Position numbers and translations under genes: made by a program | Notes under the pieces: model-generated | Databases searched by the model: none | Told to the model about the DNA's origin: nothing | Seen by the model: the letters and a program-made list of their open reading frames with translations, nothing else | In this document: positions 3,661 through 44,314 of the stretch, in pieces | Numbering within the stretch: position 1 is the first letter of the stretch | How the letters are laid out: each line of letters begins with the position of its first letter | NCBI GenBank assembly: GCA_035236585.1 | Contig: CP141127.1 | Span: 72,459,495 to 72,523,494 of the forward strand | DNA from: Warburgia ugandensis | Lineage: Eukaryota > Streptophyta > Magnoliopsida > Canellales > Canellaceae | Direction of reading: 5' to 3' | DNA length: 64,000 nucleotides

Positions 3661-4340
3661 TTTAAAATTAGTTGAACTAAAATAGAGTATATGGAATGCA
3701 ATTTTAGTAAGGAGAGGAGCTAGAGTGGAGGACCAGTCAAGATTGATAACCAAGAAGTCCCCGTAAAAGACCACTTTCGGCACTTAGAATTTATGATTCA
3801 TGAGAATGGAGAGATTGAGAGGGAGGTTGCCCAGAGAGTCCAAGTAGGTTGGAACATATGAAGATGTGCATTTGGAGTTTTGTGTGATTGGCGAGTGCCA
3901 CTCAAACTAAAAGAAAAATTCCATAGGATGGCTATAAGGCCAGCCATGCTCTTTGAATTAGATTATTAGGTAGTTAAAGAACATCATGTTCATAGGCTAA
4001 GCATAGCAAAAATGAGGATATTGAGATGGATGAGTAGCAAGACAAGAAAAGATAGAATTAGGAATGAAAATATTAGGGGAAACTTAGGGGTAGCACCAAT
4101 AAGTAACAATATGAGAGAGATTAGACTTAGATGGTTTGGACATGTCCAACGAAAACTAAAAATGGCACTAGTTAGGAGTGAGCAATGCAAGTTGAAGGTT
4201 CTAAAAGGGTAAGGGGAAGGCATAAAAGAACATAGACAGAAGTGGTGAAAAAATATTTAAAAACATTGGAATTAAATGAACCCATGGTAAATAAAGGGGA
4301 ATGGAGGAACAAGATTTATGTGGCCGACCCCTAATTAGGA
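3661..4340 (+). pseudogene. LINE C-terminal region after reverse transcriptase
   Basis: This continues the RTE protein. A readable segment at 4,012-4,210 has M-R-I-L-R-W-M followed by [11 protein letters not shown], the conserved tail motif of plant RTE and related LINE polymerases (R-W-x-G-H-V-x-R). Downstream, K-I-Y-V-A-D-P at about 4,310-4,332 is the usual last motif before the short 3' UTR. The catalytic domain lies upstream. Stops occur between the segments. Confidence 0.7.
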
Positions 4341-8933: not shown

Positions 8934-10420
8934 TGTCATCATCGTCGTCGTCAAGACCTTAACCTGATTAGGAGTTGACCACATCAATCTTACTCCTCTA
9001 TTCCCCTATTAAGTATCATGTCTTTATTTAATCGTAAAGTTTTTAAATCTTTTCTCACCACTTCTATCCATGCTCATTTAGACCTTTCCCTTGCCCTTTT
9101 AGAACCTTTGACTTAGATTGCCTCACTCCTTGTGACAAGTGCCATTTTCAGTCTCAATTGGACATGTCCAAACTATATAAGTCTAATCTCCCTCATTTTG
9201 TTACCTATTTGTGCTACTCCTAAGTGTCCTCTAATGTCTTTATTTCTTATTCTATCCTTTCTTGTCTTACATCTCATTCATCTCAACATCATCATTTTGG
9301 CTGTACTCATCCTATGTATACTTCCTTCCCATCGCATCCTTCCATGTGTGTTAGAGATATAAAGTGAGTGCACTAAAAAAGAATGAGAACTAGGTTGATC
9401 TATTCTATGGCAAAGCATCCGAAGCATAAATGCACACTAACACAGTCTTTGCAGAGAGATAGGAGCATCCAATGTTGTTCTTTAACTGCCCAATATTCTA
9501 ATTCATAGAGCATGACCGGCCTTATAGTCATACTATATAAATTTTCTTTTAGTTTGAGTGTCACCTACCGATCACACAAAACTCTAGAGGTTCATCTCCA
9601 TTTGTTTCAATCCACTTGAATTATCAGGGTAACCTCCCTCTCAATCTCTCAACTCTCATGAATTATCAATCCCAAGTATCGAAAGTGGTCTTTTAGGAGG
9701 ATTTCTTGGTTATCAGTCTTTATTTGTGCTCCACTCCTACTCCTCTCATTGCTAAAATTCTATTCCATATACTCTACCTTAGTTCCACTAATTTTAATCC
9801 TTTAAATTCTAATGTATTGCTCCAAAATACTACTTTGTATTTATGCCCTCCCTTGTCTTATCAATCAAAATTATATCATTTGTAAATAACATGCACCATG
9901 AGATATTCTCGTGTTGATGTTTTGTTAACTCATCAATAATCAACATAATTAAAAAGATACTGGCTCAATGCTAACCCCCCTTTGTGCAATCATATAGTGA
10001 TTGAAAAATCATTGGTCTCTCTGGTAGTAGTCCTAACATTTGTTACCACTCCCTTATACGTATCCTTGATTATGTTTGTATGTCCCATGAAACCCCTTTT
10101 CTCACCCGACACCGGCCAAATTAACTCTCTAAGGATTATATCGTGAGCTTTTTCTAAGTCAATAAAGACCATGTGAAAGTGCTTCCTCCTCTCTCTATAT
10201 TTTTCTATCAATTGTCTCGGTAGGAAAATAGCTTAATTTCATGGTACACCTCCTAGGCATAAAACCAAACTAGTTCTCTAATATATTTGTCTCATGTTAT
10301 AGCCTCTTCTAAATTACTCTTTCAAAAAGTTTCATATTATAGCCCATAAGTTTGATCTCAAGATAATGAGAGCAACTTAGTATATGTCATTTATTATTAT
10401 AAATTGGTACAATCAAAATA
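8934..10420 (-). mobile_element. RTE-type LINE, 5'-truncated copy on the - strand
   Basis: The reverse complement of the 3' end of the LINE at 1,590-4,367 starts here with a GTCATCATCGTCG tract (8,935-8,947). The - strand frame at 9,990-10,211 contains V-F-I-D-L-E-K-A-H-D, the palm motif of the reverse transcriptase, and the K-R-G-F-M and E-T-N-D-F motifs also seen at 3,290-3,480. The C-terminal tail R-W-x-G-H-V shows as its complement near 9,140-9,175. The copy lacks the endonuclease and ends near 10,420. 5' truncation is the usual outcome of target-primed reverse transcription. Confidence 0.75.
9950..10340 (-). pseudogene. LINE reverse transcriptase fragment
   Basis: This is the palm region of the truncated RTE copy on the - strand, with the first catalytic motif (F-I-D-L-E-K) readable at about 10,160-10,180. 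Compared with the copy at 3,290-3,480 the protein has similar spacing but many substitutions, so the two insertions are not recent sister copies. Stops interrupt it towards lower coordinates. Confidence 0.7.
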
Positions 10421-13092: not shown

Positions 13093-13490
13093 TGTAATAG
13101 ACCGGTGGCTCCCACATACAACAATATTGTCTGTGCTAGAAAACTGGCTGCCCATACAACCAGCCCCCTCACAATTTTGTTCTTCCCTGGTTTCTCAAGG
13201 AAAAGGCCTTGTTCTGTGGGCAAAGTGAGCAGTGGATACAATATTGTCTTCTTTGGGTACCTCCCAATCCATCCCTCAGCCTTCATCGTTAAACGGTACC
13301 TCGGCCTTCAAGGCAACGGTTCACCCCTCCAGGTTTTGTTCCATATGGAGAACTTTCCTCAGGAGGCCTTGTTGTAAGGAGAGTCACACACCACTCTTAT
13401 CAATAGCCTAGTAACATTGCCCTTAACAATGTGGAAATAACTCTCTATCACTAAGCCATCTCCCATCTACGGGGTACCTAGGCCTCCACA
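13093..13490 (-). repeat. TRIM 3' LTR
   Basis: Starts TGTAATAG and ends CTCCACA. It aligns with 13,595-13,821 over its first 100 and last 120 bases, including CCCACATACAACAATATTGT and the terminal GGGGTACCTAGGCC word. The middle (about 13,200-13,370) has no match in the partner LTR and includes a second ATACAATATTGTCT word and a second GGCCTTGTT word. Confidence 0.8.
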
Positions 13491-13576
13491 TCTTCCCTCC
13501 TTAGGGAACACGCGTCCCCGCATGTTAACCACAAAACTAGGAGCCCACATGCGGCCAGCCACACACGGGGTTAGGG

Positions 13577-13594
13577 GTTGGCTCTAATACCATC
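13577..13594 (-). promoter_or_regulatory. TRIM primer-binding site (initiator tRNA-Met)
   Basis: The complement reads GATGGTATTAGAGCCAAC immediately after the 5' LTR end. It is one base different from the TGGTATCAGAGC core complementary to the 3' end of plant initiator tRNA-Met. Confidence 0.85.
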
Positions 13595-13821
13595 TGTAAC
13601 AGCCTAGTGGCTCCCACATACAACAATATTGTCTGCTCTAGGAATCGGGCCACCCATACAACCAGTCCCCTCATGGTTTTGTTCTTTCCCGAGGATAAGG
13701 CCTTGTTGTAAGGAGATTCACACACCACTCTTATCAATAGCCCAACAACTTTTCCTTTGCAATGTGAGACTAACTCTTTGTCCCTGAGTTCTCCCATCTA
13801 CGGGGTACCTAGGCCTTCACA
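13595..13821 (-). repeat. TRIM 5' LTR
   Basis: 227 bases, TGTAACAGCC to GGCCTTCACA, followed by the duplication ACCCA. Direct repeat of 13,093-13,490. Confidence 0.85.
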
Positions 13822-13826
13822 ACCCA

Positions 13827-14329
13827 TGTCCTCGGCCCTGAGCAGAAACCAATACCCCCCTCCCCTATACGGCCCTCCCCCCACCATCATGGTACCTTGC
13901 ATGGTGACCCCTCCTTAGAACCCAGTTCCCTCCCCCCCACCCCCGCGTACCCAGTTTGTTGTGTGCCCCCCTCGATATCTAGATCTACCCCGGTACCCAG
14001 CCTCGGCCTCCCCCACACCAACTCTACCCAGTCCCCCCCCTCTCTAATCAGTGCTACCCAAATCTCTACCCTCCTCCCAATGCTACCCAATAACCCTCCT
14101 TTGCTGACACTACCCAGGTCGCCTCCACTGGCGAAAGGTACTCGATTGCCTCCCCCCACTCCCTCCCCGTGCTGGGATAGTGAGCAAAGGTAGATGCTAC
14201 CCAATCACCTCCCCCCAGCCAGCAGTACCCAATCACCTCCCCTCACTGGGACAGTACAATACCCCAATCCTGCCCCCAAAGTCGACTATGCCCTTGCTTG
14301 ACGTTTGCCTAGCTCCCACGTCGTAGTCC
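13827..14329. repeat. C-rich imperfect repeats inside the MULE
   Basis: About 500 bases of very C-rich + strand, in strong contrast to the AT-rich surroundings. A TACCCA-centred unit recurs at irregular spacing (about 13,948, 13,994, 14,024, 14,056, 14,083, 14,110, 14,197, 14,225), often followed by ATCACCTCCCC. The open frames seen here on both strands are by-products of low stop-codon density, so I do not call a protein. It may be captured GC-rich sequence or a MULE subterminal satellite (inference). Confidence 0.6.
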
Positions 14330-15547: not shown

Positions 15548-16806
15548 TGTTGATGATTTTTGCCAGTGCACGAGCTATTGTGGTATAGCTAATGCAAGTA
15601 TGGGTTGATCCCACAAGGACGCGCTTTAAGAATTTGGAGTTTTTAATCAAATTTAATTATTTAAAATTAAAATTGATTCACAAAAATTAACAGAAAGAAA
15701 TCAAACTTCATCTTTAGTTTAACAATGAAATTCTAGAGGTCTAATTCTAGAAAGAACAATAAAACCTTAACTAAAACTAAAACTAGAAAGAAAAAAATAA
15801 GAAAAATCTAATTCCCTGTCTTAAGTACTATACAATTCTTCAATTCTGGTATCACAAACCGTCATTAGACTCCATCACTATATTCAACATATCATGGATT
15901 AATGATTTGATGGATGAATTTGTTAGATTCTTCAAATTTTTAAAGATCTAATTGAATCAAGGAATTTAAGAACTAATGGCTTAATTCTATTTTTAGGACC
16001 CAAATTGAAGATCAGGAGTAGCAATTAAACTAGAAACTATCCTAAAACATGTTATAAAATTTAATTAAAATACTCAATTAAAACAAATAAGAAATTAGAG
16101 TTTTTTCGTAGTTAAACCAGAACCCTTAAATTGGTTAAATAGGAACAAATAAGATAGTTCCTAGATTAACTACAAAACGTGAATAACTAAAACTGGAATA
16201 ACATAAAATGCGAAGAGTAATAGTAATAGGACAGAACATGTAAATTGAATTATTCTACTCAGGGCAAAACAGGAAATTTTTTCAAAACATCCTTAAAACT
16301 CCTGTAAAACCCAAATCCACGGAAGAAGACGACTTTGCCAAAGAAGATGCCCAGAATGATGAGATGTGCAGACACCTAACGGTTGAAGATCCGAGCTAAT
16401 TGTGATGACCCGGGTTTTTGTAACACGTTTTGTAAAGTATTTTGAAAGACAGGGCCCTTAAGAGTGTAAAAAAATTTCGCAAAACAAAGCAGCGGAAATT
16501 CTTTTCTTTAGAACTTGTTTTGAAAACCCAAGTCACCACTTCATACATAACATAAGTACAATTTGTGTACAAAATAAAATTCCATTGAAGGAATATACTT
16601 TTATTAAATCTCCAGGATCCATCCAATGGTTCACAGTACAGCCAAATCTAGTACAATACTTGTCCAAATTACATAATCCAAAACTCAAGCTCACCATACA
16701 ATAAAACTCTCAACAAAGAAAAATACATGTCTTCAAGGGTATACCTTGAAGATTATTCTCTTCAAGTCTTCTATTGTCTTTAGCTCCTAACTCTCCTTCC
16801 CTGTAT

Positions 16807-16837
16807 CTGAGATATTGCAACAAGTACAATATCTCAG
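16807..16837 (-). other. Conserved hairpin in the long LTR, copy 1
   Basis: CTGAGATATTG pairs perfectly with CAATATCTCAG around a 9-base loop and is followed by AAGC...GCTTGGTAGG. Equivalents occur at 35,429-35,469 and 33,296-33,327, all 400-520 bases from the LTR 3' end. Confidence 0.7.
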
Positions 16838-18330
16838 TAAGCAATGCTTGGTAGGGGATTCAAGAAGCATAATAATTGACAAGGTAATTCCAATACTTCA
16901 TAATCTCATTATCCTTAAACATACTCTTTACTTGGTAAGTTATGTATATCTATATAAATACATACCCTTCATGGGTAAACCAGTTAAATTTGTGAAAGTA
17001 GTCAAATATCATTCCCAGCTAAGCTGATCAATTCTCTCCATTATGAGAATTTAGTATTACAACTAATCTTATACTGGGAATTTCCCTTCTTAGGAAATAT
17101 GGGTAATATACAATTACCTAGCATTTCATTATGCTAAAACATAAGGCATTTCACTATGCCTATTCTCATATGCATCATAGTGCAAAATAATCAGAAAGGT
17201 TGCTATGCTGCAGTCTAATCCGTACTAGCGTGCTTGGATAACTGCCTTGTTCACCACTGATACCACGGTGCAAAATATTATGTCACTGCCCGTATGGAGG
17301 GGCAAAACTTTCACAGTGGTGGCCTTCCCATAATTGCCACCACCCGACTTTTAGCCTTTCTTTGGGCAAGGTATCATCATAACATCAAATTTCAAGGAGC
17401 GGGTAACCAAACCCTCATAACTCCTCTAGCAATAGCATTCCCCTAGGCTTATGCCTATTAAAACAAATTCACAAGCCTCCAAGCTTGTATGTAAAATAGA
17501 TTTCATATATATCAGACCATATGTCTGTTTACTTAGGGCTGAAATATTTCCTAGTTTCCTATTCGCTTATAGTTTAGTCCTTAACCATCTTATATGTGTT
17601 TGGTTGGATCATAAGGTTTTCAAGAGATTTAATACAAGTATTATCATTACTCTTGTCAACATAAGATCATGAGTACAATCATGTATATCTCATGTAAATG
17701 CATTCATCAAATCCTCCTACCTTTAAGGATTGATCTCTTTTCCCCAATCTTCCATGATCCTAACTGATGTATGTAATCTATACATCCATACATATTGTCA
17801 ATATATAAATTATGAACAATCCTATTGATCGCTAGATCTGATGTTTAGAATGATCTTTAGATCATTCATATTTAGAAATTTTTCTATCTCTAAGGCTTTG
17901 TATGTCCATCTCCTTGATCTTGATCTTTCATAGATCCATTGATTGACAATCTACACATGTTGATAAAGATCAAGGTCCTAGATCTTCTATCATCTAGTTC
18001 TTCTTTGATCTAAGTTCAGTCATTGGATCATCCCTATGGAGGATGATCTTGGTTTTCTTCCATGAATCATCTTTGATCAAGGGTTTGGATTATCTAATCT
18101 AATGAACTATAACAAGTATACTAATAAACATGCATACTAAGTACAATATAGTGTTCTTATTCTTATTGTTCTTAATCATCCAAGATCTAATGGATCTTGT
18201 TTGATCATCCTTTTCTTACTTACTGTTTTTATTAGGGTTAGGTAATTTACTAACCTTTTATGCTCTTATTATTATTATTCAACCAATTAATGTGCTGGTT
18301 GAAGGTAATTTATTCAAGCCTAAATCTAGA

Positions 18331-18715
18331 CTGCTCCTCTTATTTCCACTTGGCTAAGGCTTACTAACTGAATGGGTGAACACAAAGTAGTTACTTCAAT
18401 CCTCATGTAAAGAGGCGTTTAGACCTTACAAAAGTCAACGAAAGGTAGGGGAAGAGCGAGGCTCTATTAGATAACCCCCTTAACCACTATGTTCATCATT
18501 CACTAGAATGACCATAGCTCAACCTTTCATAAGGTTCCTATAGGCATGTTTACCCTAAGTACTCTTTCTAATGGATTTTAATTAAGTCCATGAATATTTA
18601 TAATGTCATTCATGGGGTTTATTATTATTTTTCTAGTTTGGGCCAAGGATTTGATAATCCTTATATTGTCCTACTAACTATAGCCCTTACTAATTAAGTC
18701 CAAAGTACTCCATTC
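18331..18715 (-). other. Shared leader module, copy M1 (in the long LTR)
   Basis: About 380 bases with high local similarity to 26,088-26,466, 37,323-37,706 and 56,653-57,045. Common words on the + strand include CTCCTCTTATTTCCA, GGCGTTTAGACC, GAAGAGCGAGGCTC, AACCCCCTTAACCAC, CATAAGGTTCC and TAGCCCTTACTAATTAAG. Two hosts are long LTRs and two are LARD bodies. It has no open frame. Confidence 0.75.
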
Positions 18716-20690
18716 TTATTTGTGTCATGAAACTCTACTTTCTCATTAGATTATATTTTTGATGCTTTATGCTCTTTATCTCATAACAAGTAGATCTACT
18801 AATAACATTTAACCATAAATGAATTATAAATTTAAAACATAAAACTACATAATTTAACATTTAATGATAATGAGGCAAGGTACTTAAAATTACTCTAACA
18901 TTATTTCCTACTAATATACCTTAATAACTCAATTTAAACTAACATGGACTTAAGGTATAATCTCATACTATAGTATAAACTTATATGAAATTCTAGCATT
19001 GTCCTGAGTTAGAATGGCATGAAATCATACTAAAGTGCCCCTAAGATAATTAAATCTAGCACCTTATGATAACAATGAAATCACATATTATGCTAAAGTC
19101 TAAGTGTTATACTAGCATACTTTATAACATAATCATATTTAAAATGCTATTATATAAAATAAAACTAATTACATTAACATTTTTAGAAACCTTTACTTAT
19201 GATCCAACCATTAGATCTTAGATCTTTTCCTTTGATTAAGGATTTTAGTTATATTTAGGGGATTTTCTTTATTAAGGTCCAAAGATCATATTGATCTATT
19301 TTTGTCATAATCCATTCATGATTTCCTTGGATTTTATCATATCAACATTCATTCTATCCATCTCAAGGATCTGATCACACTTGATCTCATTGATCAAGTG
19401 GGTCCCTTTATATTTTTAGGGTTTTTCTACCATAATGGGTAGATCCCTTAATATATCTCCGAATAAACCATAGATCTCACTTTATTTCAATAGTATATCA
19501 TTATTAAAACATATTTTCAAGACCTCATCATCTCAGATCTTGAAGATCTAGGTAATTGGAAACTTATTTCTTTAATACAGAAATTTTTACTGAATATTAT
19601 GTCCATTTTATTATTTCATCAAAAAATAGAGGTTTCAAGCTTTCCATAGCTTCTTTCCAATCTCAATTTGGAGTTCAGATGGCTCTGGAATTGGATCTGG
19701 AAGTTCACAGTCCTTCCTAGGGGTAAGATTTGATCTGGGCCCAAGGAACGGACGGCCCAGATCTTTCGGGCGAAAAATCAAGCCAGGTGGACGCGTTCGG
19801 TTTGTTGGGCGTGTCCGCTAGGATGAACTGAGGAAGCGCCCTTAAGGGGCGTCCACAGACGCAGATGGGACTAGTGGGATGCTCATCGTCCTCGCGCTCG
19901 TAAAGGGGACTCCCGTCTAGCGTGTCAACTCGTGGGTTTGACGGACACGCCATCATCTCGCTTGGGACGATGTCCCATGCACAGCGCACATGCCGTTTCT
20001 GACGGTGTGTCACGTGTGCGTCTTGGGCGCCGCTAGATCCGGAGATCAGACTGTCCATTCTAGACCGTCCAATCAATCCTCTCTCAATTGAGGGCCCAAA
20101 ACTTCTCTGATCATTGTGAAAATTCTACCCTAGGGGTTTTGGACCCTTCCGAATTGATTGGTGTAGTTAGAATTTTCATTTGAATACTCTATCATCCAGA
20201 ATTAAGGGTTCTTGTGTTTACTTTATTTTTACCTTTTTATTACCAAAATAAATTACAGTAAACAAAAATTTACATAAAATAGTATTAAACATCTATAGAA
20301 AGTATTTCCACCTACCTGATTGGAGAAAAAACCTTGGTTAGATGCCCAATTTAAAAGGAATACCTTGTTGATGAAGATATGGCCTAAGATCCACCTTTCT
20401 TACAAATTTTCGTTGTTTGAACCATTGGATCTTGAAATTGATTTGGGGGTTTTCTAGAATATATATGTTGGGAAGTTTTGGACGGTGAAATTGATGAAAT
20501 TAGATCTGGAATAGAGTGCCTAATCAATTTTAGGTCTCTTGTTCCAATCTAAAAAGAAAAACAAATTGAAAAGAGAGATATCTCTTGGAAATTTTGGGTT
20601 TTTTGGGAGGGATCTAGGTCTAATTTTTTAGGGAGAGTGAAGAAAATTTTGTGGGGATTTTATGAGAATTTTTGGAGGATTTTTGGGGTT

Positions 20691-20700
20691 GTATTTATAG
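20691..20700 (-). promoter_or_regulatory. TATA box of the long LTR, copy 1
   Basis: On the - strand the sequence reads CTATAAATAC, a good plant TATA box, about 610 bases inside the LTR. The second copy has CTACAAATAG at the matching place near 42,825, so its box is damaged. Confidence 0.65.
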
Positions 20701-22177
20701 GCATTTTGGGTCTTTTTTCATGATTATAATATTTTATTTTTTATTATTAAATGGCATGAAAGTCTCCCATGCTCCATTTTTTCTTCCCCATGCCCCATTT
20801 TTCTTCCCCAAGACCAGCTGATATTTTTTAACCCATGACTTCATGTGGGCTGCTCATAAGATTCAGTTTTGGGTCCCTTGTGGGCCCCACATGGTGTAAA
20901 AAGACCGTTTTACCATTTATGTATAAAATTTTGGGTTTTATACCCATGATCTCGGATTTGAGTGTACTTAGTGGCGTTGGATTGGTATTTCTCAGTACAT
21001 TCTATATTTTTATGTCTCATATTTTGATTTTTGGGAGATTTTGATTTTTAGGTAAAATTACTATTTTACTTTTTTGTCCAAGAAATGAAGAAATTTAAGG
21101 ATTTTTCATCCAAATTCAGAATTTGTTGTGCTTACAGTCATTTTGAAGGGTTTGCTAAGTTTAATTTCAATTGTACATGTCTTATTATTTGATTACATTT
21201 TTATAAAAAGTATATTCTAAATAACCCTAATATTTCAGCCGGAAATATCTGAAACTCAAACTTTATTGATTTTCTCAATCAATTACAAAAATTGGGGTTA
21301 TTACACAGATGAGGTTGGGTGAGGTATCGATGAGTGGGCATGCTGGCTGGTGGGTTCTTGTCCAATGAGGGAAAAAAGATGCCTTTTCTGGGCGTCGTCT
21401 GGAATAGATCCAGCTTGTGCCTGGTTGGTGAAGAGGAACGACTAGGGAAACCATTTGGTGCGAGCAGTGATGAGGGAGCTCCCAGCCTGGGTGGAGGGCT
21501 ATGGAAAAGGAGGTGCAATGAAGGCAGGGGCTGAGGGAGTGCTGGAGTGTGGTCGGTAAAAGAGGGAGAGAAAGGGCAAAAGAAAACTACCCCTGCTGAG
21601 CAAGCCGACCTAGTAGTTGGGTATTGGGTCTAGTCAATGGAGACAATCACATTGGGTAGAGGAGGAGAAGGGAAGGGGATTGGTGCGATGTGCGGTGAGC
21701 TGTGAGCTGTGAGCAAGGAGAACAAGAGGGAGAGAGAGAGAGATGGGGGTTGCAACAAGGGAAAGAAGAAGATATGGTAAGAGGAAGAGACCGAAGAAAA
21801 AGAGCGGGAAGAAGGGCAATGTCAGGCTAGAAGAGGAAAAAGGGAAAAAATTAAGGTGTGCAACAATGGAAGAGGGGGCTAGGTTTGTAATGTGAGATAA
21901 GCGAGAGATAGAGATCCAGGATGAGGAATACATGAAAGAGAAAGTTAAGGTTGCGTGTGTGAATGGGAAGTATAGAATCAAGATGAAAATAGGAAAATGT
22001 GAATAGAGATGGGGATCTGGGTTGATACGGTGAAGCAGATGGAAACTGGCAAGGTGATGCGTGGAAAAAATAGCATGGTGAAAAGTAGGAAAAAGAAACT
22101 CCAAATGGCATGCTAAACAAGCAAAGAAAAACAAACCAGAACTCCCAAAACATCCCCTTCACTCCATACGGTTCCCC

Positions 22178-27058: not shown

Positions 27059-29172
27059 TATTGATATTTTTCACAAGTGCACAGGCTATTGTGGTATAGC
27101 TACTACAAGTACAGGTCGATCCCACAAGGATGCGCTTTAAGAATTTGGAGTTTCTAATAAAATTTAATTATTTAAAATTAAAATTAATTGACAAAAATTA
27201 ACAGAAAGAAATCAAACTTCATCTTTAGTTTAATAGTGAAATTTTAGAAGTCTAATTCCAGAAAGAACAGAAAAAAGAACAATAAAACCTTAACTAAAAC
27301 TAAAACTAGAAAAAATTAAGAAAAATCTAATTCCCTATCTTAAGTAATATCCAATTCTTCAATTATGGTATCACAAACCTTCATTAGACTCCATCACTAT
27401 AGTCAACATGTCCTGGATTGATGATCTAACAGATGAATTTGTTAGATTCTTCAAATTTTTTGAGATTTATTCGAATTAAGGAATTTAAGAATTAATGGCT
27501 TAGATTTATTTTCAGAACCCAAATTGAAGATCAGGAACAATAACTAAACTAAAAACTATCCTAAAAACATGTTATTAAATTTAATTAAAATTTTGAATTA
27601 AAACAGACAAGAAATTAGAGATTTTTCGGGTTAAACATGAACATATACGATAGTTCTTAGATTAACTACAGAACATGAATAACTAAAACAAGAATAACAT
27701 AAAATACGAAGAGTAATAGTAATAGGACAGAACATGTAAATTGAATTATTCTACTGAGGGCAAAACTAGAATTTTTTTCAAAACATACTTAAAACTCTTG
27801 TAAAACCCATATCCACTAGAGAAGACGACTTTGCCAGAGAAGATGCCTGGAATGATGAGATGTGCAGACGCCTAGTGGTTGAAGATCCCAGCTAATGAGG
27901 TTGGGTGAGGCGTCGATGACTGGGCATGCTGGCCGGTGGGTGCTTGTCTAATGGGGGAAAAACAACGCCTTTTCTAGGCGTCATCTGGAACAGATCTAGC
28001 TCGTGCCTAGCCGGTGAAGAGGAACGACTAGGGAAACCATCTAATGCGGGCGGTGATGAGGGAGCTCCTGGCCTAGGTGGAGGGCTGTGGAAAAGGAGGT
28101 GCAATGAAGGCAAGGGGAGAGGGAGTGCTGAAGCGTGGTGGGTAGAAGAGGGAGAGAAAGGGAAAAAGAAACTATGCCTACTGAGCAGGCCGGCCTAGTA
28201 GCTAGGTATCAAGTCTGGTCAGTGGAGACGATCGTGTTAGGTAGAGGAGGAGATGGAAAGAGAAGAAGGGAAAGGGGATTGGTGCGATGTGCGGTGAGCA
28301 AGGAGAACAAGAGGGAGAGAAAGAGAGATGGGGGTTTCAACAAGGGAAAGAAGAAGAGATGGTAAGAGGAAGAGACAGGAGAAAAAGAGTGGGAAGTAGG
28401 GTAATGTTGTGCTGGAAGAGGAAAAATTGGGGTGTGTGACAATGGCAGAGAGCTGGGCTTGTAATGTGAGATAAGCAAGAGATAGAGATCCAAGAGGAGG
28501 AATACGTGAAAGAGAAAGAGAAGAAAAAGTTAAGGTTGCATGTGTGAAAGGGAAGTATAGAATCAAGATGAAAATAGGAAAATGTGAATAGAGATTGGGA
28601 TCTCGGTTGATACGGTGAAGCAGATGGAAACTGGTAAGGTGATGCGTGGAAAAAACAGCATGGTGAAAAGTAGGAAAAAGAAACTCCAAATGGAATGCAA
28701 AGCAAGCAAAGAAAAACAAACCAAAACTCCCAAAACTTCCCCTTCAATCCGTACAGTTCCCCTCTTTATAAGTTTTTCCCTTCCTCATTTTCCTCCTTTC
28801 CTTAGTTTCCTATTAGGAAACTCCTCCAATTTAGCACTCCTCTTCTATTAAGACACCTTCTTTTAGGAACCCTTCATCCCTTGCCTTATTGATCTTCAAA
28901 TTGATCTGCACCATTGAAATTAAATCTAAGCCATCCAACCCTTCTTTAGTTGATCTGCAAAACCAAAGACTAGATTAGAATAATCTAAACCATACATTAA
29001 GCATCCACTTAGCTCAATTGATCGTCTTACCATTAATTTTGACAATTTATAGTTGGATGGTTGACTTGAGGTAATTTTTATATTTTATCCAAAAAATTAT
29101 CAAATTAATGAGTTAGATGGTCTAATTAAATGCTAAACTAGGGGTCTTTTAGCGAAAATTAAACACTTAACA
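27059..29172 (-). repeat. LARD copy 1, 5' LTR
   Basis: 2,114 bases, TGTTAAGTG...TCAATA on the - strand (the last bases correspond to TCAACA in the partner). The stretch 28,080-28,560 is almost pure purine on the + strand, so the several open frames over it are composition artefacts. No recognisable protein. Confidence 0.85.
28763..28772 (-). promoter_or_regulatory. TATA box of the LARD 5' LTR
   Basis: CTTATAAAG on the - strand, about 400 bases from the LTR start, identical to the box in the 3' LTR. Transcription would start shortly after it and run toward the primer-binding site. Confidence 0.6.
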
Positions 29173-29177
29173 CTACA

Positions 29178-33327: not shown

Positions 33328-35428
33328 CAAGCTATTGCTTGGTAGGTACATAGACACTTAATGTAATAACAATTGAAACATAAAAAGCATGTTGAATAGC
33401 AATGCTAATATAAGTGTAAGTCATAACATTTGTGGAGTATAAGTATCATAAGAAAAATATCATGTGCGATAAAAACATGAATCTCATGAGTGTAAAATAT
33501 GATACTCTTATGGGTGTAAAACATGATCTGATCCAATCTCAATGAACATACAATAACCAACAGGGCACCCCAAAGTATATGGGTCCCACAAGTGTCTCAC
33601 ACACTCGTACAACAGATCATGAGTACTCATATCAATCCTCTGAGTGTCGTCACACGTAGGCATACAATAACATCTCCATGCTCATCATGCAAGCATACAG
33701 AACAAGAGTGTTGATTGTCATGCTATAATGGCAACCACTCTAGGGTCTTAACCACCGCTGCTCCCCATCAACATCGTAATGGGAGACTTGATGTCTATCC
33801 CCATGGGAAGGCCTAGACCAGTAGTGTGAACTACCCATGTTACCAAATCCCTATCGAAAGCCATATGCGGGCAGGTGTCTATCATATCATAACCATATTA
33901 TAAATTCAGAGGGTGGGTGGCCGGTCCTACTCCCTCCTAGCATGACATCCACCGAGTGAGAGCACCCGTCATAAATTGTAAAACATATAAATCGCGTATC
34001 TCGTAAAATCAGGAGCACTCATGGCTCACAATCCCCAAGGCACACCTCTCATCCTAGGGTTAGCCTCTCAAGGGATTAGCCACCAAGCTTCCACCATTGA
34101 TTGTATGAAAAACCATCAATCTCAGTGATGCAATAAACAAAGAAAGATATTTATTAATCATATATAAGATACGCGATATCAATACCATAAAAAAATCGAT
34201 CATAAAAACCCATTCAATGTACTAATGAAATCTCATATCAATCATGGCATAAACTTTGAAATTTACAGATATTAGAAATGAATAAACATGTGACAATCAA
34301 TCATGATGCTATGATGATGCAACATTTTAGAAAATTAAAGTGCCACATTAAATGTCATCACCTACCTTAGTGAAAGTACAATCAAATCAAATCAGGCACA
34401 TACACCTCTCAAACCACGTGCTCTGATACACCTATCAGTATCACAGTACTATTTTGAATTATTTATTTCATCTTAATAGAATCCATGGCCATCCAACCGT
34501 TGGATCATTCTTTAAGGCCTCTGATTATGATTAAATCATTAATTATAACCTTAATCATCAATAATCAATGTCATTTCATGTTCATCTACTCATTTTAGTG
34601 TGTATCTAAAGTTTACACATTGATTTGACAGTTAGATCACTCTCAGATCAACGAATTCCATGATCTGGGTTAGATCAATGGTCCAGATCAATTCTAAGAT
34701 GAATACACCTAATCCATTCCTTAGATTCATCAATTCATCCTTTAATTCATCCAATTATTCAAGTTCTAAGGTTTGATTATCCTCTAATCGACCTCATCTA
34801 AGTAATTGAGTACATTTTCGTAGGTTTAATCAATTAACTAAGCTCAAATCAAGGTTTAGATGTTAAATTCATGTTTACGTTGTTGAGACAATTCCAACGG
34901 ACCTTTTGGATCAAAGATAGGGCTTATGTAGCCTCCATAATCTCAAAAAAACCATTTCAGATCAAAATCCAGACAAAAACTCCAGTTTACACCGATTTGC
35001 ACCTGCGGAACAGTTTACACTGATTTATACCAATGTAAACCGGCATACCTAGTGTGATGACCTGGATTTTTGAAATACATTTTGTTATTTATTTTCAAAT
35101 GGTGATCGACCAATTTTGCAAACATTTTGATAACTTACGTAGCGAAAATATTTTCTTTAAAATTCTTTTCAGGAAACCCGAATGCCACATTTCAGTCACA
35201 AATACATACATAATTTTGTATACAACATATGTTTCGAAAGAAACTCATTTTATTAAAATTACAAGATAGATCCAGCAATTCACATACATAGCCCCTTTAT
35301 TATATCTTATGTCAAAAATACACAAATCAAAATACAATCCAATCTTTTCCACAATAGTACATAGTCTTAATCAATAGTATGGTCTTCATCTTCCCATGTC
35401 GTATCTTTCCATTCTTTTCTTTCTATGT

Positions 35429-35469
35429 CTGAGATATTGTTAATATTCAAACATTTACAAATATCTCAG
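35429..35469 (-). other. Conserved hairpin in the long LTR, copy 2
   Basis: CTGAGATATT pairs with AATATCTCAG around a 21-base loop, followed by CAGGCTATGCTTGGTTGGGG. Homologous to 16,807-16,837; the loop is longer. Confidence 0.65.
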
Positions 35470-37322
35470 CAGGCTATGCTTGGTTGGGGATTCAAGAACA
35501 TATGGAATCGTATAATTCAAAAGTACAATATTCATAATCATCATATTCCATATGAATCACATAATTCAATTTCTATGAACCATACCATATATGATCATTC
35601 TATCATATAATTTATCATGTAACATCCACTATGATAATTCCACACCACTCACCACTAGATCGTATGTATATATATATATATAAATAGTCAAAAATCGTGA
35701 ACAATAGTCAATAGCTCAAACATCAATAATCATACTCAGATATACTGAGTTGATAAATCATCCAGACTCTTGCTAGAAAAATACTCCCTCATTAGGGCAG
35801 TATTAGAATCTCACTATGCCATGCATCATAATGCAAATAATCAAGGACTACCATGCTGCAGTCTAATCCGTACTAGCACACTCAAATAACTGCCCTATTC
35901 ACCAATGATACCATGATGGAAAATATTGTGTCACTGTCCATATGGGGAGACAGGACTTTCACAGTAGAGCCTTCCCATAATTGTCCAACCCTACTTTTAA
36001 CCTCTCTTTGGGCAAGGTATAATAATATCATCAAATTTTGGAAAGCAAGCCCTCATAACTTCCTCAGCATAGCATCCTCAAGCTTATGTCTGTTTAAAAC
36101 AAAACCACAAGCCTCCATGCTTGTATCTAAAATACTTCTTGGACATCTTACACGATCTGTCTATTTATGTTATCATCCTCGTATTCAATATCCTCATACT
36201 AAGGATATAATTTCATTTCTAAATTTAGGGATCCTCATTTACAATGAATGATACCCATGTTCATATCAGTTTAGGGATTAATCATTTGTTGTAAATGATC
36301 CCCATTTCCTTTAATTTGGTATTCACATACCAAATGTTATTAAGTGTAAGTATACTCATTTGATACAAATGATATCCATTATTATTATGTTTTTATCTAA
36401 GTTTAGGGGTAATCATAAATAATACCCAGGTATTTATTATGTATTCCATCTAATTTCAATAGTTATCTCTATCTCTTATACATGAATTATGATTCAAATA
36501 TAACTAAGCATTTTATTATTCTTAAACATTATAATGCCTATGTATAACAACAATTCCGTAGACCATAGGTCTTGTATTCTTAAAGTTCCACTTACCTTCA
36601 TGTAGTGATCCATCCCTTCAGAGCTTCCATGATTGATGTATGTAATTTATAAATACATACATATTGTCATTATCTGTACAATTTTGGATAATCTCCAATC
36701 TATATTCCTTATCTAATCTTGTCCTTTGATATAAAGAATCTAGATCTATCTTGTGTTCCTATCATCCATACAATCTATCTTCCTCAAATAGTATTTTATC
36801 CTATTGATCAATAGATCTGACGATTAGAATGATCTTCTAACCTTTCAGACCTAAGTATTTTCTATCTTTAAGTCTTTGTGTGTCCATCTCCTTAATCTTG
36901 ATCTTTCATAGATCCTTTGATCAACCATTTATACTTGTTGATAAAGATCAAGGGCCTTGATCTTCTATCATCTAGTTCTTCTTTGATCTAAGTTCAGTTA
37001 TTTGATCATCCCCAAGGAGGATGATCCTGGTTCTCTTCCTTGAATCATATTTGGTCAAGGGTTTGGATTATCTGATCTAATGATCTAGATTTGATCTACA
37101 ACATACATACTAATAAACATGCATATTAAGTACAATACAATGTTATGATTCTTATTGTTCTTGATCATTCGAGATCTCCTTATGGATCTTATTTGATCTT
37201 GATTATCTTACTTACCATTTTTATTAAGATTAGATATTTTACTAACCTTTTATGATCTTATTATTATTCAACCAGTTAATGTTTTACTGGTTGAAGATAG
37301 CTTATTTCATCATAAGTCTAGA

Positions 37323-37706
37323 CTACTCCTCTTATTTCCAATTGACTAAGGCTTACTAGTTGAATGGCTGAACACAAAGTGGTTACTTCAATCCTCATGT
37401 AAGGAGGCATTTAGACCTCACAAACGTCAAAGAAAGGTACGGAAAGAGCGAGGCTCTATTAGAAAACCCCCTTAACCACCATGTTTAGCATTCATTAGAG
37501 TGACTTTAGCTCAACCTTTCATAAGGTTCCTCCAAGCATTTTAACCCTGCGTACTCTTTATAATTGATTTTAATTAAGTCCATGAACATTTAAAATTTCA
37601 TTCATGGGGTTTATTATTCTCCTAGTTTGGGTTAAGGATTTCATAATCCTTATATTGTCCTACTAACTATAGCCCTTACTATCATTAAGTCCATATCATT
37701 CATTCC
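37323..37706 (-). other. Shared leader module, copy M3 (in long LTR copy 2)
   Basis: The closest relative is M1 at 18,331-18,715. It also matches M2 and M4 in the LARD bodies, for example AAGGAGGCATTTAGACCTCA and GAAAGAGCGAGGCTC. Confidence 0.75.
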
Positions 37707-38986
37707 ATGTAAATGTCCTTCAATTATATTTTTCATTTAATTACATTTTCAATGTAATTTACATAACATAAGCATTAAAGCATAAATAAATAAATAAATC
37801 TAACAATTAAATCTACTAAGCAATAAAAGACATTTACAATATCATTCAATAATTCAAATAAAAATTTAACATGGCGTAACTGATCATCATGATCCAACGA
37901 TCATATTGGATTTCTATTCATTTTTCATCCATTTAGGGTTTAGATCTTGATCTTTCATTTTCCTTTAGATCTAATACATTCTCTTAATGTGATTTTATCA
38001 CTAAATAATTGATGCATCTCATCAAATGATCTGATCCTTCTTGATCCAATCGATCAAGAAGATCTTAAGCCATTTTATCCAATTTAAGGGCATAGATCTT
38101 AATCTATCCCAAATTATCATCATCAAGTCCATCAATCCATATGATCTTAACTTTATATCATCATCCAAATACATCCACACTATCCAATCTTCCTTTATCA
38201 AATTGATCAAGGAGATTACCATTCACTTTTATGGATTTTACTACTTTTAAGGGTCAAGATCTTATGATCTAGAAAATAAATTACATCCAACCATTTAATT
38301 ATTGTAATTATACATTTAGATCATCATATAACTATTTTGGAAGGTCTTATCATGCTTGATTAATCAGATCATGAAGATCCATGCTCACTTTTATGATTTT
38401 TCTTCTTTTAAGGCTACGTCTCTTAATTAAACACAGATCAGTCACTTCTAACCATTGATTCCATGTTCTAGAAGCACAAGATCATCAATGGATCAGAATT
38501 ATAAAGTTTGATCATTTCAAATTTCACTGATCATAGGAATTAGTAATACTATTCTTTTTTAACAAAATTTTACATGCATCAAAACATAAATTTTTTGAGT
38601 TCAATACCTTATACAAGTAACAAGAAATCTATAACAACTTTTAGATCTAAAATTGGAGCTAAATTGAGCTCTCAATTGAAGAAACAAGGTTATAGTTCAA
38701 CAAATGGATGGCTCAGATCTAATTTAGGCGAATCGGGTGCGGGGACCACCATCGGCCCATGTCTGTTACCACCTTTTACCTGTGATCTGAGAGGGGTGAC
38801 TGGCTATGGGCGAGATGGGGCTAAGGGCGAGATGGTCCAATCTGGACCGTCTAATCACCTAGCCTTGGATCACCCTCCAATCCTTAAAATCAAGAGCTAA
38901 GATTTCACCTCTTGGGGATTTTGGGCCCCAAGATTCCATCTAATGGCTTAGAATTTACTTATGAGCTATCAAAGATGGAGATCTCA

Positions 38987-40433
38987 TGTGACGACCCAGG
39001 TTTTCCCCAAGCATTTTTAAATGCAAGATCTAATTCATAGGGCGAGATGCATCCCTATTTGAAAACCATTTTATAAAAATGATTCAATGCAGCTAAAAAT
39101 CTTTTCTTTTAAACTCATTTTGAAAAACCCCTAGTGTCATTTACTTTCACAACTACCAAAGTAATTTTTGAAAATTTCAGAAATTATAAATGTCTTCCCA
39201 AGTCTATCCAGTTACAGCTCACACCCCATTTGTAAATAAATACAGATACATGCCCAAAGGGTAGAGAGTTTACTTACATTCATACTTGTCTCTTCTTCAT
39301 TTACTTGATCTTAACACTAACATTTCCTGATGCGTCTCCTACTCGTGAGTGGAGCTATCCTGAAAAATAATATATTTGGGTGAATATTTCTCATACCCAA
39401 TAGGTGATTTGATATTACCATTTTGAAAACACGGTAAGCAACATGCATGATTCCAAGAGCTTTTCATGCAAAACATCAGTGATTCTTTCTGTGTAAGCAT
39501 ACATAGTTATGCATAAAACATAAGGTTGTTGATGCAATTTTAATCATGGAATCCTTTCTTATAATCTAGTATTCAACGATATAAATATGATCAAAATCAT
39601 GAAATAGAAATCAATAGATCCATATACGAAAATCTCGACAAATGCATTAAACCAGCGAGTCAAATATAATAAGCATGAAACTCTTAAATTAGTCATCATT
39701 CAAGCAGATGCTAGTATCATGCACATTAGTCTCTCGGCATAAATGTCATTCCAACTGGTCATGAGTACTCGTATACGACCATCTTAATGCTATATGCATA
39801 TCAATCACACTGAAATCATAGGGTCACTATGCTCATGACCAGAACTACTCTAAATTGTGTGTCTCCGATATCTAGAGACCAGTCCACCATAGCCTCCATG
39901 GCGACTATGGATATGTCCTTGAAAGGGTGCCGTGAACACCTCTAGTGGTCGTCCCTGTTTACCACAGGAGTCAGGGAAGGGACAATACGGTTTTTGGCAG
40001 CGATACCATCCACCTTTTTGGTGGTAGAGGCTGAGAGGCCAAACCCATACCCCTCAGCATAGTGCCCATTAGGCTCAATAGCCCAATAACATACATAGTC
40101 CAAATCTCAAATCAACATAAATCACGCAATTTATGCATTTGTTTTCAAAGTATGCGAGTATGGCATAAACTCTACTCATGCTAGTACCATAATTAATGTT
40201 ATAAATCTGTAAACTCGTATAAGAATGGCATGGTTTAAAAACACATACTAATTACAGCAATAGAAACAGGAAACTTAATTTGGGATGCACTTTGAAAACA
40301 GATTAGTATCAGATTACTACCTCGATGTTCCTTGAATCGCGTTATTTACTACTCGATCCTGGATCACTTTTGTGCAACCTTGGATATTAATGGATAACAA
40401 GGATTCCGTATTATTTTCCAACCTTTACGGATC
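38987..40433 (-). repeat. Palindrome, left arm (inverted LTR end)
   Basis: About 1.45 kb, complementary to 40,556-41,721. In about 120 hand-aligned bases (39,738-39,858 against 41,133-41,255) I count roughly 10 differences. It holds a 277-base segment (about 39,180-39,456) absent from the right arm. Its outer 200 bases resemble the ends of the long LTRs at 16,401 and 35,053, so it is a related LTR family. Confidence 0.85.
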
Positions 40434-40555
40434 ATTACGTAGCCTTATAGATTAACGGCTAGATCTACCTTTTTGGCTCTATAAGCCCTTGCTTAGTGTG
40501 CTTCTAGGCTAGATCTAGAAGATCTTTATAGTTCTTAGGACGTATAAGGATTTGT

Positions 40556-41721
40556 AAAGGTTGGAAAATAATACTAGAATCCTTGTTATCCATTAATATC
40601 AAGGGTTGCACAAAAGTGATCCAGGATCGAGTAGTAAAGAACGTGATTCGAGGAACATTGAGTTAGGTAGTCTGATATTACCATGTTTTCAAAATGCATC
40701 CCAAATTAAGTTACCTATTTCTATTGTTGTAATTAGTATGTGTTTTTAAACCATGCCATTCTTATACGAGTTTACGGATTTATAACAATAATTATGGTAC
40801 TAGCATAAGTAGAGTTTATGCCATGCTCGCATACTTTGAAAACAAATGCATAAATTGCATGATTTATGTTGATTTGAGATTTGGACTATGTATGTTATTG
40901 GGCTATTGAGCCTAGTGGGCACTATGCTGAGGGGTACGGGTTTGGCCTCCCAGCCTCTACCACCAAAAAGGTGGATGATATCGCTGCCAAAAACGGTATT
41001 GTCCCTTCCCTGACTCCTGTGGTAAACAGGGGCGACCACTAGAGGTGTTCACGGCACCCTTTCGGGAACATATCCATAGTCGCCGTGGAGGCTATAGTGG
41101 ACTGGTCTCTAGATACCGGAGACACATGATTCAAAGGATTTCTGGTTGTGAGCATAGTGACCCTATGATTTCAGTGTGATTGATATGCATATAGCATTAA
41201 GATGGTCATATACGAGCACTCATGACCAGTTAGCATGACGTGTATGCCGAGAGACTAATGTGCATGATACTAGCATCTGCTTGAATGATGACTAATTCAA
41301 GAGTTTCATGCTTATTATATTTGACTCGCTGGTTTAATGCATTTTCCAAGATCTTCGTATATGGATCTATTGATTTCTATTTCATGATTTTGATCATATT
41401 TATATCTCTAAATACTAGATTATGAGAAAGGATTCCATGATTAAAATTGCATCAATAACCTTATGTTTTATACATAACTATGCATGCTTACACAGAAAGA
41501 ATCACTAATGTTTTGCATGAAAAGCTCTAAAATTTTCAAAAACTACTTTGGTTGTTGTGAAAGCAAATGACACTCGGGGTTTTTCAAAATGAGTTTAAAA
41601 GAAAAGATTTTCTACTGCATTGCATCGTTTTTTATAAAATAGTTTTCAAATAGGGATGTATCCCACCCTATGAATTAGATCTTGCATTTAAAAATGCATA
41701 GGGACAACCCGGGTCGTCACA
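40556..41721 (+). repeat. Palindrome, right arm (LTR end next to the primer-binding site)
   Basis: About 1.17 kb, the inverse complement of the left arm, with a 277-base gap at about 41,530. It ends GGGTCGTCACA and runs directly into GTTGGTATCAGAGC. The 122 bases between the arms (40,434-40,555) pair only loosely, with GGCTAGATCT present twice as a direct repeat. Confidence 0.85.
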
Positions 41722-41827
41722 GTTGGTATCAGAGCTAGACCCCGACACGGTGTGGGTGGCTAGCCGCACGCGGGCGCTCACGTGTGGTAAGACATGCAGG
41801 GCCGCGTGTCCCCTAAGGGGGAGAGGT
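41722..41827 (+). promoter_or_regulatory. TRIM primer-binding site and body of the chimeric element
   Basis: GTTGGTATCAGAGCTAG begins at 41,722 with an exact initiator tRNA-Met core. The rest aligns with the complement of 13,491-13,576 (GGTGTGGGTGGCTAGCCGCA, then CGCGTGTCCCCTAAGG) and ends in a purine tract GGGGGAGAGG before the LTR. Confidence 0.85.
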
Positions 41828-42097
41828 TGTGAAGCCTTGGCCGATGAGGGCGGGTTGATGAGAGTTGGCCAAGAGGGTTGGCAGGCTTCTAGGCAAGGTG
41901 AGGGATTGAGTGTTAGTCCCACATCGCTAGGGGAAAAGTTATTAGGCTCTTGATAAGAGTGCTAAGGACTTCCCTTACAACAAGGCCTTTTCCCCTACCG
42001 GGGCAAGAACAAAACCATGGGTGGGCTACGTGATATGAGCCTCAATCTGCTGACACAGACAATATCATTTCAAGGTGTGGGCCCTCGGGCTGTTACA
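41828..42097 (+). repeat. TRIM-family LTR of the chimeric element
   Basis: 270 bases, TGTGAAGCC to CTGTTACA. It shares with 13,595-13,821 (complement) the words CTCTTGATAAGAGTG, TTACAACAAGGCC and ACAATAT near the end. No second copy lies upstream of the primer-binding site. Confidence 0.8.
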
Positions 42098-44314
42098 TCT
42101 CAACCATGTTGCTGGATCCGTCGTTCCTGACAGATCAATGGCCGGGGAGATCACCTAGAGGCCGGAAAACCTAAGGGAGGTGCCGAAATGGAAGGGAAAT
42201 GAAGTGGGTGGCCTACCTATGCCAATTCGATGAAGGAATTTCACCGAAGGAGCTATGTACTGGAGAAATAAAACCCTAGATGCCGAAAATACATACAACA
42301 AACAAATTCTCTATTGTCGTTGCCATAAAAGATGGAAAATATGGAGGAAACATAGATCCCCGTGTTCTTAACATATTCAACAGTCCAAGATTTGAGTTTA
42401 ACAGTGGGATATACTGGAAGAATGTGAAAATTATGCTGGAGATAGTGACCTTGCTAGAGGTTGTTCTTCATTTTGAGTTTTTTGGCAATCCAAGAGGTAG
42501 ATCATCATAGGACCTTAGGGCTTATGTAGATTTCCTTAGCCTGAATAGATCTAATGGTGGAGACCTAGATCTATGGGCTAAGATTCCTTTGCTAATTGAA
42601 TTAGTGTTTCATGGGAGGAAACCCTAGTTCATCGGGGATGATGCATCCCTAGACGCTCCCAATGCAAACACGGGGTTGTTTGCCCCAGTGCGTCTGGGGA
42701 CACACCCATAGAGAAAGAGAGAAATGGGGAAGATGGAGAGGAAGTTTTGAGCTGGGATTTTGGGGCATTATAGGAGACCTCATGAAGAACATTAAAAAAA
42801 AAAAGTTTTGGGAATTTTATGGGCTATTTGTAGGGATTTTTGAAATTTTCATAATTATATTTTATTTCTTTTTATTATTAAATTGTCATTGGATTCCTAC
42901 TACCACCTCCTTCTCCACTAGCAGCTGGTAGTATTTTGACTCATGATGGTGGTCTTCCAAACTGTTGGCCCACCTTATGGGCCCCACATAGTTGTAAAAA
43001 GACCATTTTGGTGTTTTAATTTCAAAAATGGAGAAAAATAGGGTTTATTCCTACGAACTCGAAATTGAGAGTACATAGTGTCGTTTCTATTTGTTTTCCT
43101 AGTACATTCCAAATTTTGATGACTTAGGTCTCGGTTATGAGTAAAATTATTATTTGACCCTTTTATTCATAAAAATAGAAAAAAAAAAAAGAATTTTTAG
43201 TCCGGACTCAGAATTTGACGTACTTATAGTCATTCTGATCAGTTTTTCGAGTACATTACAAATATCCAAGTTTAAAGTCTTGATTTTATTTTTATAAGAA
43301 CGAATTTTCTGGAACTCAAAGTTCCAATTCCACTTTTAAATTTTCAACTTTTAATTTTTAATAATTCAATTATATTCATAAAAATTGGGGTTATTACACC
43401 TGGGAAGCACTGACTCTGGAATGTGCTGTAGAACACACCACGTGCTTCCTGGTCGTCAGGACACCCCCATTTGCATCCTAGTTTTCAAGATGCCGGGGGT
43501 TCTAGCTATCCATGATAGAGAGTGACAGCATCCCCTCTTGCCGTGTGCTGTGTGTGCACATGACAGAGTGCTCAGGCCACGTCTGTACTTGGGCTTCCCT
43601 GTCAGTGTCCTGGGTACGTCGTCCATCAAGGACGATGAACCTGAACCATCCATTCTCTTTTGACTCGATAGGAGCCCTAAATGCTCTAATTTTTTATCTG
43701 TTTTTGCAATTCCTAGGGTTTTTGGGGCCAAAGATTATATTGGACAACTTAGAGCTACCATCCGAGTTGTTCTTAATGTGGGTCTAACCATGATCCACGG
43801 TTTTGATTTCGTAGGCCTTCTAACGGCCATTGAGACTAGATCCGACTTGGATCTGTGAGAGAAAAGTCGGAGAGGGGAGATCGAAGTCCTCCAATGAGTG
43901 CAAACGTTAGATGTGTTTACCAGAGAACGCGGCAAAGAATGCAAGGGTTCCTGGCTATTTGGCATTAGGGACAAGGGGAAAACATGCCTTTGTAGTTGGA
44001 GATCCGATCTCCTTGTAGGGAAAGAGGATCACCGCCTTCCTCCGTTGGCGATGGAATTGGAATGGAAAGGGGGTGTCGTTATCAAAACGACCCCCTCTAA
44101 TTTGGGTCCCTTGCTTAATTACCAAAATGCCCTTTGATCTTAAAAGGTCCATATCTCCCTCTTCCGAACTTCATTTTTGATGTCGTTTATACCGTTCAAA
44201 TCCTATCGATGTTTAATTACTAAATTTAGTAGTTTTAAATCATACTTCTATTTATAAAAATTTTAATTTTATTAACTAATTTTTAGGAGTAAAAATTGAA
44301 GATATCACACTATT

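Follow-up and report, generated by a model that had tools for sequence, protein, structure and literature searches.

A folded gypsy-type LTR end joined to a TRIM at the primer-binding site in Warburgia ugandensis: a probable chimeric product of reverse transcription

A single 3,111-bp object joins an inverted repeat of a gypsy-type LTR end to a TRIM body and a TRIM LTR, with the switch between the two families inside the primer-binding site (PBS). It is found at positions 38987–42097 of the 64,000-nucleotide stretch of Warburgia ugandensis DNA analysed here, referred to as the window (assembly GCA_035236585.1, contig CP141127.1, positions 72,459,495 to 72,523,494 of the forward strand). The object is probably a chimeric LTR-retrotransposon cDNA, formed from a snap-back minus strand by second-strand transfer onto a TRIM. 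Its features are collected in Table 1.

TCTCA flanks both ends of the object and the TG...CA tips are flush with this short (5-bp) target duplication, as is found in LTR-retrotransposon insertions. The object does not display two LTRs of the kind that are identical at insertion; the left end is a gypsy-type U5 palindrome and the right end is a TRIM LTR. At the inner joint of the object there is no target duplication belonging to either the left or the right part. Separate nested insertions of the palindrome and the TRIM part are rejected, since neither has its own duplication there. A preliminary description of this DNA had proposed one unit with one target duplication, a left part formed by a folded gypsy-type U5 end and a family switch at the PBS. 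The flush TCTCA copies, four inverted block pairs (91–94% alike) and a gypsy-type GT spacer, with TRIM sequence after the PBS, bear out all three, and the separate insertions that it named as a check are not found.

The object splits a solo LTR that is older and belongs to a related family. The three largest pieces of this target are 63–70% alike and collinear to a second solo LTR in the window (16401–21305, 4.9 kb, related family, element antisense). The second solo LTR sits in an older repeat, of which an uninterrupted copy is found at 27061–29173. The window also contains a large inverted repeat pair (3055–4299 and 9004–10413, 74–84% alike, about 5–7 kb apart).

Table 1. Positions of the object, its parts and its target in the window
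Feature	Positions	Strand	Remarks
Target duplication, left copy	38982–38986	.	TCTCA, 5 bp
Outer arm and loop: 3′ (U5) end of gypsy-type LTR	38987–40539	-	antisense, 1,553 nt inward from the U5 tip (TGTGACGACCC...)
Stretch present in left arm, absent from right arm	39182–39455	-	about 275 nt
Presumed seat TAGCCT	40440–40445	+	for the 3′ end ...AGGCTA, as in ordinary copies; loop about 95–100 nt from seat to 40539
Inner arm: same U5 end	40540–41721	+	sense, 1,182 nt, end ...GGGTCGTCACA
Spacer GT	41722–41723	+	gypsy type, LTR end to PBS
PBS	41724–41735	+	TGGTATCAGAGC; gypsy-to-TRIM switch
TRIM internal region	41736–41827	+	purine-rich tract (GGGGGAGAGGT) at its end
TRIM 3′ LTR	41828–42097	+	270 bp, TGTGAAGCC...GGGCTGTTACA
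Target duplication, right copy	42098–42102	.	TCTCA, 5 bp
Target: older solo LTR, related family, split by the object	35053–43398	-	flanks CCTAG/CCTGG; collinear with solo LTR 16401–21305
Inverted block pair	39456–40317 / 40667–41528		862 nt, 94%
Inverted block pair	39075–39181 / 41526–41632		91%
Inverted block pair	38987–39079 / 41629–41721		91%
Inverted block pair	40317–40406 / 40577–40666		92%

The palindrome makes up the left 2,735 bp of the object and is an inverted repeat of the U5 end of the gypsy-type LTR. A gapped alignment of arm against arm, running into the loop, shows 1192 identical positions among 1284 aligned. The arms thus differ at about 7% of positions, and they differ by a deletion as well, which makes a simple assembly hairpin unlikely. 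Other copies were sought in the 1.12-Gb assembly of 14 contigs; every genome search scored 40 candidates, out of thousands in some cases, and copy counts are therefore lower bounds. Ordinary copies of the LTR carry the stretch of about 275 nt, and the right arm has therefore lost it. In two copies whose match spans the deletion site, C1:19582156 and C5:21828517, the gap end points differ from those of the right arm. Thus the loss looks private to the right arm, and derivation of this arm from another parent without the 275 nt was rejected.

A tree of 26 LTR stretches places the left and right arms as sisters (support 100/99), each with a tip length of 0.036. The LTR-pair tips of the elements L009, L010 and L011 in the same tree are 0.022–0.039. 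Sister position and branch lengths like those of LTR pairs show that the two arms have a single origin and were identical when made. In one aligned stretch, the arms have five bases in common that none of the ordinary copies with a base at the site carries (of the 5 ordinary copies shown, 3 to 5 have a base at each site).

The direction of the fold is given by the loop. The antisense half runs through the loop to TTCTTAGG at 40532–40539, and ordinary copies do likewise (TTCTTAGGCTATAG in L017 and L020). The sense half restarts at ACGTA, about 100 nt closer to the U5 tip. Ordinary copies continue without a break from the outer-arm sequence into that of the loop. The loop therefore belongs to the outer arm, and self-templating is possible solely from the strand that starts at the left U5 tip; the opposite strand, not having made the loop by then, could not fold on itself. 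This polarity, with the start at the left tip, is that of a minus-strand cDNA extended from the PBS, and it is the one needed by the fold-back model put forward in the preliminary description. The object displays two features of a self-primed cDNA, namely arms identical at origin and a loop on the first-made arm.

A possible pairing seat is also present. The end of ordinary copies, ...AGGCTA, could pair over 6 nt with its own TAGCCT in the outer arm. The present junction, TTAGG/ACGTA, is two bases (CT) short of this pairing, which is assumed from ordinary copies. No seat of 5 nt or more for the present-day 3′ end is found in the outer arm, where just 3 nt pair at 40443. A 6-nt seat within 150 nt turns up by chance at 73 of 953 points. 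For snap-back, the position of the loop is the stronger evidence and the pairing seat the weaker.

The following steps would account for the object. A minus-strand cDNA primed on gypsy-type RNA would have been extended from the PBS over about 1.55 kb. The 3′ end of this cDNA would then have folded onto its own strand, with AGGCTA/TAGCCT as the likely seat, and copied back through U5 and the primer copy, and the predicted product is a U5-U5 palindrome with a plus-sense PBS end. Replacing ordinary plus-strand strong-stop DNA, the PBS end of the palindrome would have annealed to a TRIM minus-strand cDNA in the same particle, at the complement of its PBS. Once completed, the single linear molecule would carry a gypsy U5 tip on its left and a TRIM LTR tip on its right, and integrase would have inserted this linear chimera with a 5-bp duplication.

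The main rival to a self-folded minus strand is the joining of two identical cDNAs. Microhomology end joining, before integration or during it, would have linked two cDNAs of one gypsy-type source head to head, both of them broken inside the LTR and one of them an ordinary gypsy-LTR/TRIM chimera. Such an origin is unlikely, if less so than the other alternatives. A microhomology at the joint that is short or imperfect is compatible with end joining, and L012 is an example of two different LTR molecules joined in inverted orientation, with ACCTA shared at the joint. However, the break points in the focal LTR are just about 100 nt apart, which a hairpin expects and which independent breaks would reach by coincidence. 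End joining also requires two near-identical source molecules, as the sister position of the arms (100/99) demands, and the 5-bp target duplication is clean.

L012 (C3:18303800–18310800) consists of about 1.32 kb of antisense U5, about 0.43 kb of sense U5, PBS, interior and 3′ LTR, and its outward-facing U5 tips are 1,734 nt apart. The wider stretch L029+L030 (C3:18296000–18315800) shows a direct repeat of about 128 bp (91%) on either side, in place of a 5-bp duplication. In a tree of 46 U5 ends, with a bootstrap that had not settled, the right arm of L012 is sister to its own 3′ LTR (99/93) and the left arm is not. L012 was dropped as a second self-fold, because its arms are not sisters and two different LTR molecules are joined.

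No second self-palindromic case was found in the searches, which scored 40 loci per query and give lower bounds. Among 67 tips in 52 fetched sequences, several of them duplicates of one place, outward-facing U5 tip pairs are found in the focal object and L012 only; the scan covers the fetched stretches, and a possible second tip of L019 or L022 would lie just past the fetched end. L019 and L022 each show a possible head-to-head LTR pair about 5.6 kb apart, with LTRs only 78–79% alike. These two loci (C3:31102000 and C3:31221500) are 120 kb apart and share the same inverted-LTR arrangement, perhaps as a segmental duplication.

A special case of the self-folded minus strand is the exact model of the preliminary description, in which the fold lies at the R boundary, full-length minus-strand strong-stop DNA having ended at the cap site and folded back. 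In this exact form the model is doubtful. The fold point does lie about 36–38 nt downstream of a conserved TATAAAA in ordinary copies, as the model would have it; here TATAA is found in 34 of 36 matches from 30 loci, and TATAAAA in 31 of the 36. Against this, a second block, GGCTATAAGAAGCCCTC with a CT-rich leader, is present about 0.85 kb farther upstream, with TATAA in 26 of 32 matches from 28 loci. In the L010 LTR the upstream block is at position 403 and the block near the fold at 1,248. A TATA block with a CT-rich leader has the typical look of a plant core promoter, and the upstream block looks more promoter-like than the TATAAAA near the fold. Thus an incomplete strong-stop DNA is at least as likely to have folded back as a full-length one.

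At the other end of the palindrome, the two families meet inside the shared PBS, which we take to be of the initiator tRNA-Met type. The 2-nt spacer GT matches the gypsy-type LTR ends of L010 and L053. The TRIM LTRs that were read have other spacers, GA in the window and AG in L053. The right part of the object shows the features of a TRIM: a PBS, a short non-coding body, a purine tract, a short 3′ LTR and relatives with such LTRs. A TRIM LTR at the 5′ end is absent from the object. A TRIM copy with two TRIM LTRs is found on the minus strand of the window at about 13093–13830.

The joint recurs in the genome. A query across it (41560–41830) matches on both sides at no fewer than 10 other loci among the 40 scored, and the other 29 stop at query positions 174–179. 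With a longer query of tip, body and TRIM LTR (41530–42097), at least 9 other loci cross the joint (40 scored); the remaining 31 long matches start at query positions 173–196, on the TRIM side, and cover the body and LTR. Two of these 31 adjoin each other on C8. Combined, the two queries give at least 13 distinct other places, two of which are 149 kb apart on C5 and are perhaps one duplicated event. An additional joint is found at C5:81225278–81225562, where by match coordinates an LTR of the focal subfamily meets a TRIM body. In total, joint-crossing matches are found at at least 14 other places, some of which may be copies of one event. Two of them, L053 and L054, were read.

L053 carries at 2661–3365 a tandem TRIM joined at the PBS to a sense gypsy-type LTR end: 387 nt of the sense U5 end of a related LTR are followed by GT, the PBS and then TRIM body-LTR-body-LTR. 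Its 5′ end and target duplication were not found in the fetched stretch. L054 consists of GCGCC, a 2.73-kb sense LTR starting TGTAATGACTCC, TRIM body, TRIM LTR and GCGCC. Its LTR is a diverged relative that aligns only in parts with the L010 and L052 LTRs. The first 11 nt of the TRIM side of L054, the spacer and 9 nt of the PBS, are lacking, and its switch point therefore cannot be placed. L054 shows one target duplication with a complete LTR on each side, whereas the focal object shows the switch at the PBS and one target duplication with the left LTR folded.

Matches across the joint at 14 or more places, and L054 with its own target duplication and an ordinary LTR, show that gypsy/TRIM chimeras recur. 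Intermolecular second-strand transfer at the PBS is the best explanation and the simplest source of these recurring chimeras. Second-strand transfer between co-packaged molecules occurs. The wide occurrence of the joint makes second-strand transfer onto TRIM cDNA, as the preliminary description had it, the best account of the joint in the focal object as well. That description had also regarded the composite as without a named class. It recognised a real and unusual object and interpreted its logic largely correctly. The joint with a TRIM is broader than was thought there, as it recurs, and the palindrome is so far a single case. Of the other TRIM copies in which it had suggested looking for a palindromic 5′ end, the two that were read, L053 and L054, show no palindrome upstream of the joint in their fetched stretches. 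For retroviruses, minus-strand transfer is described, at least in part of one account, as taking place within or between the two packaged RNAs (PMC3187697).

The recurrence of the joint also bears on a third alternative, in which an ordinary gypsy-LTR/TRIM chimera was inserted first and its outer LTR half was later replaced in the chromosome by an inverted copy, through replication template switch or gene conversion. Ordinary chimeras are known from L054, and at C5:81224545–81227191 a chimera of the focal subfamily has an LTR that, by coordinates alone, looks straight through the fold point. However, the inverted copy in the focal object stops exactly at the U5 tip and the target duplication, where a chromosomal rearrangement has no reason to stop, and the divergence of the arms matches that of LTR pairs of the family. 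Later replacement is thus quite improbable.

The parent LTR is straight. A 1,301-nt query from the left arm gives at least 39 other long matches at 87–91% (40 of 12,083 candidates scored), and two-LTR relatives have LTRs of about 2.8–3.0 kb. One of these is L010, a two-LTR element whose LTR ends in GTCACA, followed by GT and the PBS. L052 has an LTR of 2.97 kb and GAACC as target duplication on both sides. With the junction query (40 scored), the match to the antisense half ends at window 40537–40544 in every one of the 39 other loci, and the sense half is matched on the other strand, as in a straight LTR. Thus the parent LTR is not palindromic, a point that the preliminary description had set as a check, and the fold is private among the scored loci. 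That the palindrome is the normal LTR of its family can be dismissed almost entirely: nothing was found in its favour, all 39 loci are straight-patterned, the arm is present in a single orientation in 16 of 20 fetched loci, the inverted joint of L012 is made of two molecules, and the second inverted pieces at L019, L022 and L021 are several kb away and only 76–79% alike.

An older related element around L012 carries Retrotrans_gag and RVP_2, and its LTR pieces are 70–81% alike. The LTR group is therefore probably gypsy-type, by LTR kinship. In L010 and L052, which have focal-type LTRs, no sense frame outside the LTRs reaches 90 codons, and thus the direct gypsy-type donor may itself be non-autonomous.

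With about even confidence, a wider proposal is made. RNAs of the gypsy-type family and of the TRIM would be reverse-transcribed in the same particles and their cDNAs would swap ends at the shared PBS, leaving some 15 fossils in the genome. Once, a self-primed minus strand would have stood in for plus-strand strong-stop DNA; the integrated molecule, carrying the U5-U5 palindrome, would then have had an inverted gypsy U5 tip on one side and a TRIM tip on the other. The object looks like a chromosomal record of minus-strand cDNA self-priming and of a second-strand transfer that joined unrelated elements. A test for the mobiliser of a TRIM that needs the genome alone is suggested by the recurrent joints, namely a search for foreign LTRs fused to TRIM bodies exactly at the PBS. 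If the proposal is true, PBS joints point to the helper family of a TRIM or its close kin, which is unknown for most TRIMs. In part of one survey (PMC4717578), larger related elements are given for just 11 among 289 TRIM subfamilies, and four of these are putative autonomous partners.

A literature search that left most subscription journals outside gave no recognised report of an integrated U5-U5 palindrome or of a gypsy/TRIM joint at the PBS. LTR swapping between autonomous and non-autonomous soybean elements was reportedly described by Du et al. in 2010, and LTR exchange between partners would be the likeness, going by the title alone. TRIMs and tandem TRIMs, as part of the survey describes them (PMC4717578), share with the object a small body, a PBS and short LTRs, and the tandem array is also found in L053. 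Unlike those TRIMs, the 5′ LTR is here replaced by a gypsy-type LTR or by a folded LTR. In HIV-1, self-primed minus-strand strong-stop DNA is known as a by-product (PMC4668388), with a 3′ end that primes on itself, as is proposed here. The HIV-1 by-product is linked to the TAR hairpin, whereas the present object is fixed in a chromosome and a fold at the cap site is only a possibility. Complex LTR elements of grasses (Angela, Squiq, Opie) were built by template switching, as set out in part of the account of Sabot and Schulman (2007, PMC1950507). Like the object, they display one target duplication and two parents combined in reverse transcription. In those elements, as far as that part goes, the outer LTRs belong to one family and are alike, and the proposed switch is between R regions. 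In the object described here the switch is at the PBS, the families are unrelated and the outer ends differ, one of them being a U5-U5 palindrome.
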